Shown here one piece after another: positions 5,318-64,000 of a stretch of 64,000 bases of DNA (its first letter is position 1; every line of letters starts with the position of its first letter). The DNA is from an uncultured Ignavibacteria bacterium (lineage in GTDB: Bacteria > Bacteroidota > Ignavibacteria > Tepidaquicellales > OLB5), in assembly GCA_937873695.1 (NCBI GenBank), contig CALMYL010000023.1, forward strand, positions 1-64,000, read 5' to 3'. Made by a program: the position numbers and the translations under genes. The notes under the pieces were generated by a model, which worked only from the letters and a program-made list of their open reading frames with translations, was not told where the DNA came from and did not search any database.

Positions 5318-5494
5318 GTTACTTTCTTTTGAGCGATCAAAAGAAAGTAACCAAAGAAAAATCGCCCGCTTTCGAAAAATTGTCTAAAATTATTCTCGCT
5401 TCGCTGCAGGAAAAGAACTCATCCCGCTTACAGCGGGATTCAAACAGCTTTTCCTGCTACGCTTGCTCGAATAGTTTCTTCACGCCAATTTTTC
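5318..5494 (+). repeat. Long structured palindromic repeat, copy A1
   Basis: The head is a perfect 34-nt hairpin (GTTACTTTCTTTTGA, loop GCGA, then its complement). It is followed by CAAAGAAAAATCGCC, whose ATCGC (5361-5365) can pair with loop bases GCGAT (5333-5337). Two long imperfectly complementary arms follow (5375-5415 and 5448-5493) around a small hairpin ATCCCGC/GCGGGAT. The tail to about 5600 (TTTTTCACAGGGCGG, CTTTGAGACTTTGAG) resembles the tail of copy A2. An 87-codon reading frame across it is considered a by-product. Related copies are at 6088, 28099, 47804 and 63897, with a half copy at 43824. Confidence 0.8.
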
Positions 5495-5718
5495 TGAGGC
5501 GGGAAAGAAGATTTGATTTACTTACGCTGTTTTTCACAGGGCGGTTTAGAAGCAAAAGCTTTGTGCTCCTTTGAGACTTTGAGCTTTTGTGGCTATTTTT
5601 GTTCTAAAGAGCCGGGCTAATCATTTATGCAGGGCAGTGATTAAACCTTTTGCCGGAATAACTGTCATATATATTGAAAAGAGCAATAAACCGCATCAAT
5701 AAAATTAAAGGTATAATT

Positions 5719-6087: not shown

Positions 6088-6263
6088 GTTACTTTCTTTT
6101 GAGCGATCAAAAGAAAGTAACCAAAGAAAAATCGCCGGCGGATGAAAAACAGCTAAAACGTTTCGAACGCCTTAGCTGCAAAAAATAACTCCCCGCCTTA
6201 GGCGGGTCAAACAGATTTTTTGCTTTTTAAATGCGTTCTCACGTTTTTATACGCTGTTTTTCA
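6088..6263 (+). repeat. Long structured palindromic repeat, copy A2
   Basis: It has the same head as the copy at 5318 but a different arm pair. The left arm (GAAAAACAGC, AAACGTTTCGAACGC, GCAAAAAAT, about 6143-6187) pairs with a right arm reading ATTTTTTGC, GCGTTCTCACGTTT, GCTGTTTTTC (about 6214-6262). The central hairpin is CCCGCC-TTA-GGCGGG. The trailing sequence to 6330 (GGCCGG, CTCTTTGAGTCTTTGAG) matches the tail of the 5318 copy. The remaining 6331-6511 shows nothing recognisable. Confidence 0.8.
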
Positions 6264-6511
6264 TAGGCCGGTTTGAAAGCAATTATTTTGCTTCTCTTTG
6301 AGTCTTTGAGCCTTAGTGGTGATCCTTTGTTTTGATTTTTCTTTTTAGAAGATGAACCCCATTTTAGAATTTATCAAAACTGAAAAAGAATCTTTGATTG
6401 CCGACAATTTTCTGAATTCAATCGCCTAAAATTCATAGGCTTGAAATAATTTGAATAAACCGCTATGTTTGGCAAATAAGCAGTCCACTTCCAATAAATA
6501 TTAAAATAAAA

Positions 6512-28098: not shown

Positions 28099-28332
28099 GT
28101 TACTTTCTTTTCAGCGATTCCCGCATCAAGTGCGGGACAGGGGCAGAAAGTAACTAAAGAAAAATCGCCCGCTGCTGAAAAATTGCCTGAAATCATTCTC
28201 GCTTCGCTGCAAGAAAAAAAACTTCCTCTGCTAAAGCAGATTAAGTCCTTCGGCTCGTCCTGCGGCTGCGGGACTCAAACAGTTTTTCTTGCTACGCTTG
28301 CTCGAATAATTTCTTAACGTCAATTTTTCAAA
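28099..28332 (+). repeat. Long structured palindromic repeat, copy A3
   Basis: The head is GTTACTTTCT / AGAAAGTAAC as in the 5318 copy, but its loop has gained a hairpin CCCGC-ATCAAGT-GCGGG. The loop GCGAT (28114-28118) and downstream ATCGC (28164-28168) are kept. The left arm (28174-28222) and right arm (28278-28332) pair with each other. The centre is larger than in the 5318 copy, with TCTGC-TAAA-GCAGA and AGTCC-TTCGG...CTGCGGGACT. Confidence 0.78.
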
Positions 28333-28399
28333 GGGGGTATTAATACCGCATTTAACCCATAATGCTCTTCGACATTGACATGTTACTGCAATTTGTTTG

Positions 28400-43823: not shown

Positions 43824-43893
43824 ACAGATTTTTTGCATTAATTTATGCGTGCTCAAGTTTTTTAACGCAGTTTTCCATAGGCCGTTCAAAAGC
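43824..43893 (+). repeat. Right half of a long structured palindromic repeat
   Basis: Matches the right arm and tail of the copy at 6088 (AACAGATTTTTTGC, ATGCGTGCTCA, TAACGCAGTTTTCCATAGGCCG). The head and left arm are missing. It abuts the stop codon of the radical SAM gene at 43897. Confidence 0.7.
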
Positions 43894-47803: not shown

Positions 47804-48004
47804 GTACTTTTTGTCTTGATGTAAAAAGTACCAAAAAAATCAAGGCTGTTGAAAATTTCCTAAAATTATCTTCACTTTACAGGAAAATAAACTTCCTCCG
47901 CTAAAGCGGTTTAAGTCCTTCGGCTCGTCCGGTTGTAGTCGGACTCAAACAAATTTTCCTGTGTTTATTCTGCGAAGATAATTTTTAAACGGAAATTTTC
48001 AAAG
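47804..48004 (+). repeat. Long structured palindromic repeat, copy B1
   Basis: The head is GTACTTTTT / AAAAAGTAC with loop CTTGAT (47815-47820), matching ATCAAG downstream (47839-47844). This changed loop and changed partner replace the GCGAT/ATCGC pair of the copies at 5318, 6088 and 28099. The left arm (47850-47890; GAAAATTTCC, AAAATTATCTTC, CAGGAAAATA) pairs with the right arm (47952-48004). The centre holds CCGC-TAAA-GCGG and AGTCC-TTCGG...CGGACT. A CTCTGTGTTCTCTGTGG repeat follows at 48040. Confidence 0.8.
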
Positions 48005-48061
48005 GCCATTTTATGACAAAAACCTTTGATAATTACTCTGTGTTCTCTGTGGTAAAAAAAA

Positions 48062-52982: not shown

Positions 52983-53073
52983 ATACAAGCCCCGGAGGGG
53001 CGTCATATATCAGCGATGGGCGAAGCCCATCGAGAAAATTTGAAATTAATTAAAGCCCTGTAAGGGCGTAATC
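52983..53073. repeat. REP unit, left end of the RAYT element
   Basis: GCCCCGGAGGGGC, then GCGATGGGCGAAGCCCATCG, then GCCCTGTAAGGGCGTAAT, reading toward the transposase gene. It is in inverted order relative to the unit at 53565. Confidence 0.8.
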
Positions 53074-53087
53074 AATATAGCATAGCC

Positions 53088-53539
53088 ATGGGACAATCAC
53101 TCACAAAAAATTACATTCATATAATTTTCGGAACAAAAAATAATTTCCCTTTCATAAAATCTCCGGTAGAAAGCGAGCTGCATTCATATATTGGCGGAAT
53201 ATGCAGAAAGCTTGAATGTACTCCGATAAAGGTTGGCGGTTACACTGATCATGTTCATATTGTATGTTTGTTATCCAAAAAAATCGCATTGATGAAATTG
53301 ATAGAAGAGATAAAATCACATTCATCAAAATGGATGAAGACTAAAGGTGAATCATTAAAAAAATTCTATTGGCAGGATGGTTATGGGCATTTTCAGTGAA
53401 CCCATCAGAAATAGATAAAGTAATTGCATATATAGAAAACCAGCATGAGCATCACAGAATGAAAACATTTAAAGAAGAGTATTTGGCATTTTTAAAGAAG
53501 TATAAAGTGGATTATGATGAGAGATATATTTGGGAATGA
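53088..53539 (+). pseudogene. IS200/RAYT-like HUH (Y1) transposase, frameshifted
   Basis: The first part (MGQSLTKNYIHIIFGTKN..., 103 codons) has the HUH metal motif HVHIV (His55, His57) and the end of the family motif FYWQDGYG. The reading frame then shifts by -1 near 53380 (GGTTATGGGCATT). The second frame continues AFSVNPSEIDKVIAYIENQ with the candidate catalytic Tyr, then HEHHRMKTFKEEYLAFLKK and YDERYIWE to 53539. A single lost G, a sequencing error, or programmed slippage at GGG would explain it. REP units flank it in inverted order, typical of REP-associated tyrosine transposases. Confidence 0.88.
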
Positions 53540-53564
53540 AGTTTGATTAGTTAGTATTTTTTAT

Positions 53565-53900
53565 TGCGCCCTTACAGGGCTTGTGTTTTATGTTAGTTTC
53601 ATACCGATGGGCTTCGCCCATCGCTGATATATAGCGCCACTTCGTGGCTTTTTGATGTGATGTTTCGATGAGCTTTGCCCATCGCCAGGCTATATAGCCC
53701 TTTTCCCGAAGGGACTCCTTCGGAGCAGGGCTTGTTTTTTTTGTTTGTATTTTTTCGATGGGCTTCGCCCATCGCTGAGTTATTGCGCCGCTTCGCGGCT
53801 TGTGATGTATTGAGGCAAAGTGACCACCCCATCCCGCTTTCAGCGGGATTTCCCCTCCTTAAAAAAGGTCCAAAGGACTCCTTGGGAGAGGGGAGCTAAA
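53565..53900. repeat. REP units, right end of the RAYT element and further copies
   Basis: GCCCTTACAGGGC, CGATGGGCTTCGCCCATCG and GCCACTTCGTGGC (53571-53650) mirror the left end. A second unit at 53666-53731 has GCCCTTTT/CAGGGC with a 21-nt mini-hairpin in its loop (53705-53725). A third has CGATGGGCTTCGCCCATCG and GCCGCTTCGCGGC (53756-53800). CCCCTCC and AGAGGGG then enclose GGTCCAAAGGACTCCTTGGG (53853-53895), another mini-hairpin relative. Confidence 0.8.
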
Positions 53901-53922: not shown

Positions 53923-55506
53923 TTAATTTAAAGATCGCAGCTTCCTCGAGTTTGCCATCCACCCTGCGGCGTACACGGGCAGTTTCCAGAGTGAGGTGAA
54001 ACGTTTTAAGGGTTCGTGGAGCAATTGGCGGGTGCGGTATTCCTTATGCACGCGTTTGTGCAAAACGCGGTAAAATTCAGTTGAGTAGGTTCCGTCGAAC
54101 ATCATTTCAAAATCATCCGAGAGCTCCCAGTTATGCTTTTTCTTCATCTGTGATGAAACGCGCTCATAGAATTTTGTGCCGGGCAGGGGATATGAGACCG
54201 ATATACCGATATCATCCGGCATAAGATCGTTAACCATTTTAATGGTCTGGTTGATCTCAGTCATTGTTTCACCGGTGTAGCCGAATTGCAGGAAGAAACA
54301 TGTTTTGATGCCGTGTTTTTTCAGCAGGCGGGTTGCTTCGTAAATTTCTTCAATTGTTGTGCCCTTATCCATGGCGTCTAAAATTTTCTGTGAGCCTGAC
54401 TCTGCGCCTATCCAAATAGATTCACACCCCGCATTTGCCAGATGCGAAATATTATCTTCCTTTAGTAAAAGGTCAGCCCGCGATAGACATTTGAATGGAA
54501 GCTTAATATTATCTTTGTTTACGGCTTCCTTAAAATCTTTAACCCAACCGGGCTTAAGCCCGAAGATATCATCACAGAACCAGATATGATCAGCGGAATA
54601 TTTTTCCTTAAGCAGCTTAACCTGACCGGCAATGTATTGTGGTGAGTGCGAGTTATACACCTGCCCGTACACGGGCTTTGCGCACCAGTTACAGTGGAAA
54701 GGGCATCCGCGCGTTGTAACGAGATTTACAGAAAAATACCCGTGATGTTTCAGCCAAAGCTCGCGGTACCTTGCCAGGTCAACAAGCTCCCATGCGGGGT
54801 AGGGCAGGGTGTCGAGTTCCTTTAATACTTTCCGCGGTGCGGTGCGTGTTATTTTGCCGTTTTCGATGAAGGCGAGTCCGTTGATGTTGTGCGGTTGGCT
54901 CTGTTCATGGGATTGCTTCGTCACTTCGTTCCTCGCAAAGGGTGTGTCCACATAAGATTGCTTCGTCGCTGCGCTCCTCGCAAAGGGGGTGTCCTCATAA
55001 GATTGCTTCGTCACTTCGCTGCTCGCAAAGGGGGTGTCCTCATAAGATTGCTTCGTCGCTGCGCTCCTCGCAAACAAATGATCAAGTAATTCACCGAGAG
55101 TATGTTCGCCCTCGCCGCAGATTGCATAATCGACCTTATGATGAAAATATTTCTCCAGGTGGTCAACGCTATCGGAGCCTGATACAATTACAGTGCATCC
55201 GAATTCTTTTGCGATCTCGCTCATGCGGAATGCCGCTTCACGCATCCTGGTCAAGCACATTTTGGTGAGATAGTTGAAAGTATCGTCGTATATCACCATG
55301 TATTTCGGTTTGTGTGTTTCAAGAGATGCCTTCAGGTCCTCTTCGGAATCAGCAAGCATTGTATCAAAGAGTGCAGCGGTGTAACCTTTCTGCATAACGT
55401 ATGCGGCTGCATACAGTGTGCCCAAAGGCGCATAAAGATTCATGTTGCGGAATTCCTTCAGGTCGTGTTTTAAAAAGTACGTATTTGCAAAAAGGATATC
55501 GGTCAA
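53923..55506 (-). CDS. B12-binding-type radical SAM protein with repeat-derived insert
   Basis: A 527-residue enzyme: cobalamin-binding domain (1-140; PLGTLYAAAYVMQKGY, VDYAICGEGEHTL), an odd insert of about 58 residues (146-203) made of four near-identical 15-residue units (TKQSYEDTPF core), and a radical SAM core with CPFHCNWC (about 270), FCDDIFGL and SIWIGAESGSQ. The relative at 43897 has no insert at this point. The insert joins the two domains, where extra length is probably tolerated, so the enzyme may still work. Substrate unknown; the neighbour is a nucleotidyltransferase. Confidence 0.86.
   Translation of the reverse strand: MTDILFANTYFLKHDLKEFRNMNLYAPLGTLYAAAYVMQKGYTAALFDTMLADSEEDLKASLETHKPKYMVIYDDTFNYLTKMCLTRMREAAFRMSEIAKEFGCTVIVSGSDSVDHLEKYFHHKVDYAICGEGEHTLGELLDHLFARSAATKQSYEDTPFASSEVTKQSYEDTPFARSAATKQSYVDTPFARNEVTKQSHEQSQPHNINGLAFIENGKITRTAPRKVLKELDTLPYPAWELVDLARYRELWLKHHGYFSVNLVTTRGCPFHCNWCAKPVYGQVYNSHSPQYIAGQVKLLKEKYSADHIWFCDDIFGLKPGWVKDFKEAVNKDNIKLPFKCLSRADLLLKEDNISHLANAGCESIWIGAESGSQKILDAMDKGTTIEEIYEATRLLKKHGIKTCFFLQFGYTGETMTEINQTIKMVNDLMPDDIGISVSYPLPGTKFYERVSSQMKKKHNWELSDDFEMMFDGTYSTEFYRVLHKRVHKEYRTRQLLHEPLKRFTSLWKLPVYAAGWMANSRKLRSLN
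54892..55071. repeat. Four 45-bp tandem repeats inside a coding region
   Basis: Units of exactly 45 bp (CTTCGTC-CTTCG-TCCTCGCAAAGG-GTGTCC-ATAAGATTG pattern), alternating between a CACTTCG and a GCTGCGC subtype. Being a multiple of three and free of stops, they keep the frame of the radical SAM gene. The CTTCGTC...CTCCTCGCAA core resembles widely scattered intergenic palindromes of related bacteria. Confidence 0.9.
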
Positions 55507-63896: not shown

Positions 63897-64000
63897 GTAC
63901 TTTTTGTCTTGATACAAAAAGTACCAAAAAAATCAAGGCTGATGAAAAACAGCTAAAACTTTTCGAACGCATTAGCCGCAAAAAAAACTCGTCCGGCTTG
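63897..64000 (+). repeat. Long structured palindromic repeat, copy B2 (cut by window end)
   Basis: The head is GTACTTTTTGT / ACAAAAAGTAC with loop CTTGAT and partner ATCAAG (63932-63937), as in the 47804 copy. The left arm (GATGAAAAACAGC, TTTTCGAACGC, GCAAAAAAAACT) is of the type seen in the 6088 copy. So head and arm types combine freely. It lies after nosD; the right half is outside the window. Confidence 0.75.

Follow-up and report, generated by a model that had tools for sequence, protein, structure and literature searches.

Copies of the Repeat in the Window and the Host Genome

The window, i.e., the whole stretch of 64,000 nucleotides analysed here, carries a dispersed structured repeat in five copies, beginning at positions 5318, 6088, 28099, 47804 and 63897, together with a half copy at 43824. 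All are present as described in the original prediction, with the arm ends corrected to about 5503, 6271, 28337 and 48008, and the loop and downstream strands given there were confirmed as GCGAT/ATCGC in copies A1, A2 and A3 and as CTTGAT/ATCAAG in copies B1 and B2. G002, G008 and G009 denote the genomes of relatives in which the same sites were compared.

5318..5503, + strand: copy A1, with head hairpin, loop GCGAT, link CAAAGAAAA, ATCGC and arms; orthologue in G002, arms 96-98% identical
5318..5351, + strand: A1 head hairpin with stem S1, GTTACTTTCTTTTGA..TCAAAAGAAAGTAAC; S1 covaries
5333..5337, + strand: A1 loop strand of S2, GCGAT; the predicted pseudoknot helix covaries
5352..5360, + strand: A1 link CAAAGAAAA, a mirror-like copy of the S1 purine strand
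5361..5365, + strand: A1 downstream strand of S2, ATCGC; the predicted pseudoknot helix covaries
6088..6271, + strand: copy A2, with the plan of A1 and different arms
28099..28337, + strand: copy A3, with an extra hairpin TCCCGCATCAAGTGCGGGA in the head loop; orthologues in G002 and G009
43824..43884, + strand: half copy consisting of the right arm; the element is complete here in G002, G009 and G008
47804..48008, + strand: copy B1, CTTGAT/ATCAAG; missing at the syntenic site of G002 and G009
63897..64000, + strand: copy B2, cut by the window edge and reaching about 64095 on the contig; missing in G009 and G008

The 5' part of the element is composed of the S1 hairpin (about 11-15 bp), the loop strand, an A-rich link of 7-9 nt and the downstream strand of S2, and the 3' part consists of two long, imperfectly matched arms flanking an apex that lies between AACTC and TCAAACA. 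In the half copy at 43824, the left half is replaced by another palindromic repeat. Folding of the four complete copies yielded z-scores of -7.6, -8.9, -6.5 and -7.0, with 0 of 200 shuffles as stable, and a scan for a hairpin, an A-rich link and a complement of the loop returned 0, 1, 0 and 0 matches in four Markov shuffles of the window. Several copies are followed by short tails, e.g., CTTTGAGTCTTTGAGCCTTAGTGG and CTCTGTGTTCTCTGTGGT (5563-5592, 6292-6319, 48035-48055), which resemble another dispersed repeat.

Across the host genome (3.78 Mb), at least 15 copies with the full plan were counted, opposite-strand model matches to one palindrome not being counted twice. They fall into three head classes, A (8 loci), B (5) and C (2), the class C head being GTTCTTCTTTTG-CTTGTC with TGTCC/GGACA as S2. 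Over the family as a whole, distinct loop/downstream pairs are CGAT/ATCG, AAGAT/ATCTT, CTTGAT/ATCAAG, GAGAT/ATCTC, ACGAC/GTCGT, GAGGGG/CCCCTC, CTCCT/AGGAG and TGTCC/GGACA; one stem can bear different pairs, and CTTGAT/ATCAAG is shared by A-like and B-like stems. Element copies are intergenic, with 1 of 84 lying within a long ORF. In the nearly closed 3.7-Mb genome G009, every distinct model locus falls within 67 kb and on one strand, in the region syntenic to the window, next to an rRNA operon. The copies of this rRNA-side cluster are one-stranded in the host genome, G002 and G009 and agree with GC skew in all three, and outside the cluster orientation relative to GC skew is mixed. The one-strandedness of the clustered copies owes partly to shared ancestry.

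Covariation of the Head and Arms

The proposal of a conserved fold with a pseudoknot-like contact, for which covariation had been named as the decisive check, held up: among 33 diverse heads, counted as sequences rather than as independent events and with neither phylogeny nor R-scape, both-sided changes were found in 14 of 19 pairs, the loop pairing included. Double-change cells numbered 67 in these heads as against 14.1 after shuffling (0 of 500 shuffles), and the signal falls sharply once partners are slid by one column. The covarying S2 pairing, between the loop and the downstream strand, is 5-6 bp long and has double changes in 5 of 6 pairs. From these patterns, the head of a single strand is predicted to form an H-type pseudoknot, in which the loop of the perfect hairpin S1 is paired to a strand lying some 9 nt downstream. 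S2 is absent from most Mucilaginibacter terrigena copies, which have a four-base loop without a partner. The joint change of the arms was borne out as well; 158 element sequences compared with reference folds restricted to Watson-Crick pairs contained 1550 compensatory cells versus 614 with G.T (258) or A.C (356).

Presence, Absence and Conservation of Orthologous Copies

Copies of the element come and go: the syntenic site lacks B1 in G009 and G002 and lacks B2 in G009 and G008. The empty sites suggested as a further check were thus recovered for two copies, but sharp junctions were not, since the flanking intergenic DNA has diverged.

Copies that remain in place are strongly conserved. Identity of head and arms at four orthologous sites is 87-100%, compared with 73-87% for neighbouring genes. 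Between G002 and G008, the copies at 43824 agree at 100% in head and link and at 98% and 95% in the arms, versus 73-76% in the flanking genes; the corresponding values are 93.5-100% versus 76-80% at 28099 (host genome and G009) and 94-98% versus 82-86% at 5318 (host genome and G002), with a smaller contrast at 74619, on the same contig outside the window (87-95% versus 78-87%). The excess over genes reaches P = 4e-14 and 7e-13 at two sites. Homogenisation from other copies is argued against by the site-specific head allele CTTGAC/GTCAAG of the 43824 copies. Since orthologous heads and arms are more conserved than genes, the copies are constrained in place, and since they have changed less than their neighbours, the element probably does something. 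We read head and arms as being under purifying selection, judging from these alignments; a purely selfish element would not usually be conserved in place like this.

The apex departs from this pattern, being wholly different between orthologues (28099-28337 and 43824; G002, G009 and G008) despite near-identical arms, so that hairpin tips appear as swap sites. The extra GC-rich hairpin in the head loop occurs in A3 and its G009 orthologue and is absent in G002.

Distribution and Lineage Variants

The head model matched 39 of the 148 genomes searched, the host genome included, and matches are densest in a sister family. The taxonomic range is wide: the head recurs in Ignavibacteria, Chitinophagaceae, Sphingobacteriaceae, Bacteroidales, Fusobacteriota (Ilyobacter) and Burkholderiaceae (Caballeronia), with Ilyobacter polytropus and Caballeronia added by plasmid BLAST, and 20-mer matches independent of the loop were obtained in Ignavibacteria, Chitinophagaceae, Mucilaginibacter, Bacteroidales and Cytophagales genomes. 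What lies 3' of the head depends on lineage, namely long arms in Ignavibacteria and Bacteroidales, a short covarying stem in Niastella and Limnovirga, and other modules in Segetibacter. In many units two heads face inward; such pairs, 290-470 bp apart, are found in Chitinophagaceae and Bacteroidales, and two-headed units also occur in Ilyobacter. In Caballeronia, the units form near-perfect palindromes some 613 bp long with the ends TCGCCGGATCC/GGATCCGGCGA, and in several genera of the sister family, which belongs to the same order, the unit sits within TGTCCAAAACG inverted repeats. Elsewhere, these inverted repeats enclose other, unrelated palindromes.

In G030, the TGTCCAAAACG-bounded units L145 and L149 also hold an unrelated palindrome of CACAGAT/ATCTGTG; one set of terminal repeats therefore encloses different palindromic cargo. 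The Rfam family Bp1_684, a Burkholderia sRNA family, matches only the outer flanks of a two-headed palindrome on the Caballeronia plasmid pNK81 (L373, 2403-2511 and 2995-3090), and this sRNA family may therefore derive from the repeat.

Viral contigs gave four exact matches, apparently to simple AT-rich sequence without the fold, and the phage collection contained nothing beyond short 25-nt matches. A published description of the repeat was found neither by sequence nor by topic in the open-access literature, to which the search was confined, subscription literature not being covered.

Nature of the Folded Strand and Mode of Spread

The link was compared with the purine strand of S1 in 18 combinations, all on low-complexity sequence. 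With the stricter head set, its similarity to the mirror image of the purine strand was 0.930 versus 0.894 after shuffling (3 of 1000), and its direct resemblance to that strand was weaker (18 of 1000); with unfiltered heads, the link-stem resemblance was not significant. The mirror relation is clearest in L046, where AAGAGAAAA is the purine strand and AAAAGAGAA the link, in L313 and in the A class. A third strand requires such symmetry, and pseudoknot triple helices are known from telomerase RNA and the SAM-II type. The head shares with them an H-type pseudoknot and a tract that could align with a Y.R stem; the likeness differs in consisting of a mirror relation at the level of sequence, whether in DNA or in RNA, and as a hint of a triple helix it is suggestive only.

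A sense-strand RNA leaves an excess of G.T, because RNase P from the relatives, taken as a control through the same compensatory test, gave a G.T:A.C ratio of 720:361; this test was adopted after a G.U test by local self-alignment had proved powerless on a 23S control. The arms show no such excess, with 258:356 in cells and 194:201 in distinct sites, a weakly powered comparison. Head mismatches comprised 65 A.C versus 8 G.T, mostly the recurrent GTCAC/GTAAC, which reads as A.C on the written strand and as G.U on the other. Of the elements between tandem genes, 29 have their written strand antisense to both genes and 14 have it in sense (p = 0.03). This evidence does more to disfavour a simple sense-strand RNA than to tell DNA from an opposite-strand RNA. 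A structured non-coding RNA of the opposite strand, arms first and pseudoknot at the 3' end, agrees with the head mismatch, with the antisense excess, with the strong conservation of orthologous copies and with a link that mirrors the purine strand beyond shuffles; its U/C-rich link could join that strand in a major-groove triple helix, by analogy with telomerase RNA, and dispersal would be a by-product of RNA-based or other mobility. We nevertheless hold it to be rather unlikely, as the arms lean only slightly to A.C, far from a clear RNA, the head mismatch is a single recurrent variant mostly shared by descent, and Rfam 15 covariance models matched neither the window copies nor eight related loci in any meaningful way.

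Mobility had been proposed in the original prediction by analogy with IS200/IS605 elements, whose ends are recognised by guide-like pairing. A mobile origin is partly upheld by syntenic absences, near-identical copies at unrelated loci and terminal inverted repeats in some lineages, but the analogy itself was not, the Y1 transposase genes being unassociated with the element. Hairpin ends, dispersed intergenic copies and eight Y1 family matches in the host genome would suit an element of the REP or IS200/IS605 type that a Y1 (HUH) transposase mobilises, and one Mucilaginibacter TnpA has the element about 200 bp downstream. Yet the element lies beside none of the eight host Y1 genes and is clear at 1 of 24 Y1 loci in nine further genomes, and the head is near 2 of 30 homologues of the Mucilaginibacter TnpA, several of which bear different repeats of their own. 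The Y1 link was rejected on these counts, and we regard this origin as very improbable. Ordinary MITE-like elements, on whose terminal inverted repeats a DDE transposase acts and whose pseudoknot is inherited baggage, would account for the TGTCCAAAACG repeats and for the Caballeronia termini. In the window's genus, however, no such repeats were seen, termini vary by lineage while the head is constant, the TGTCC repeats also enclose unrelated palindromes, and baggage would not keep S2 covarying, so that we judge this explanation improbable. A target-site duplication was not evident in the few units inspected by eye, and an autonomous copy was found neither among the loci with terminal inverted repeats nor between inverted head pairs of 2.6 kb and 4.5 kb, the long ORFs looked at there being ordinary in appearance. 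No enzyme linked to the element was found.

Other repeats accompany Y1 genes in these genomes. A broken Y1 transposase gene in the window (about 53088-53550, internal TGA; region 52988-53800) is flanked by inverted and direct matches to Acido-Lenti-1 (RF01687), and this Rfam 'sRNA' therefore looks like a REP-type repeat of a Y1 transposase. Palindrome arrays of their own accompany further Y1 genes of the genome (L008, L009 and L010), and the Sphingobacteriaceae Y1 transposases of the YLHNNP type at L345, L347 and L352 are accompanied by hairpins, e.g., GGTCTAAGTTTTCAACTTAGACC and AAGCTTTCAGCTT, which are probably their own REPs. Three tandem 45-bp repeats (ATTGCTTCGTC..CTCGCAAA) lie at 54905-55074, in the region of a long ORF on the - strand (53923-55506).

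Comparison with Known Systems

As dispersed intergenic hairpin repeats with many copies and several sequence classes per genome, the elements resemble REP/BIME sequences, of which subclass 2.6 of Quentin et al. 2018 (PMC6006769), associated with RAYT (TnpA_REP) in Bacteroidetes, was noted for 'atypical secondary structures'. They differ in being much longer (180-620 bp), in their loop-downstream pseudoknot and in having no linked TnpA; no GT[AG]G foot was seen, most heads beginning with GTTAC, GTCAC, GTACT or GTTCTT, and the subclass 2.6-like TnpA homologues tested have other repeats beside them. With MITEs they share short, non-coding, intergenic sequence and, in some lineages, inverted repeats, whereas what is conserved is a folded head inside the unit, terminal repeats vary between lineages or are lacking, and orthologous copies are conserved above gene level. 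The ends of IS200/IS605 elements (IS608) likewise combine hairpins, strand bias and base pairing between two single-stranded segments, but here the loop pairs with a downstream strand (5-6 bp, covarying) rather than a guide with a cleavage site, and no TnpA was found with the element. The STAXI motif of Enterobacteriales (Weinberg et al. 2010, PMC2864571), proposed to be folded single-stranded DNA and occurring as tandem pseudoknot repeats near DNA-handling genes, is similar in its pseudoknot units and in the proposed DNA fold; the present elements are dispersed, single or two-headed, and have long arms. By inspection, the head GTTACTT does not fit the GTTRRRY of integron attC sites.

Interpretation

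The best reading of the family is that of cross-phylum, dispersed structured elements with a conserved pseudoknot head and a mobile origin, whose copies are kept by selection in the window's genus. Taken further, we give about an even chance to a non-coding repeat family of mobile origin that is recognised through a folded single strand, probably of DNA and possibly of opposite-strand RNA, and is partly kept by selection. For its spread, a trans-acting enzyme would bind the folded head of one strand, most likely in DNA exposed during replication. Head classes with differing S1 and S2 sequences would be its specificities, and the arms would serve as the stem between the ends, with a tip between AACTC and TCAAACA that tolerates swapping. 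Many copies in the window's genus would now be immobile and selected for some benefit, perhaps as a structured site for a host protein. The analysis shows the covariation, the breadth of taxa, the presence and absence between relatives and the conservation above genes directly; recognition of single-stranded DNA and benefit to the host are what we infer.

A more ambitious version is possible, although we lean against it: an undescribed superfamily spanning at least four phyla, whose H-type pseudoknot carries a third-strand tract matching the stem in a triple helix, whose movement or action by a putative enzyme depends on this fold, and whose copies have become fixed and selected site by site.

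Common across Bacteroidota and Ignavibacteria, the repeat extends to Fusobacteriota and Burkholderiaceae, and its window copies stand outside Rfam families. If the folded strand is the recognised form, it points to a new mobility or host system that uses a pseudoknot and perhaps a triple helix. The conservation of copies above nearby genes implies a selected role, which is testable in cultured species, e.g., Ilyobacter polytropus, Mucilaginibacter terrigena, Limnovirga soli or a laboratory strain of Caballeronia.
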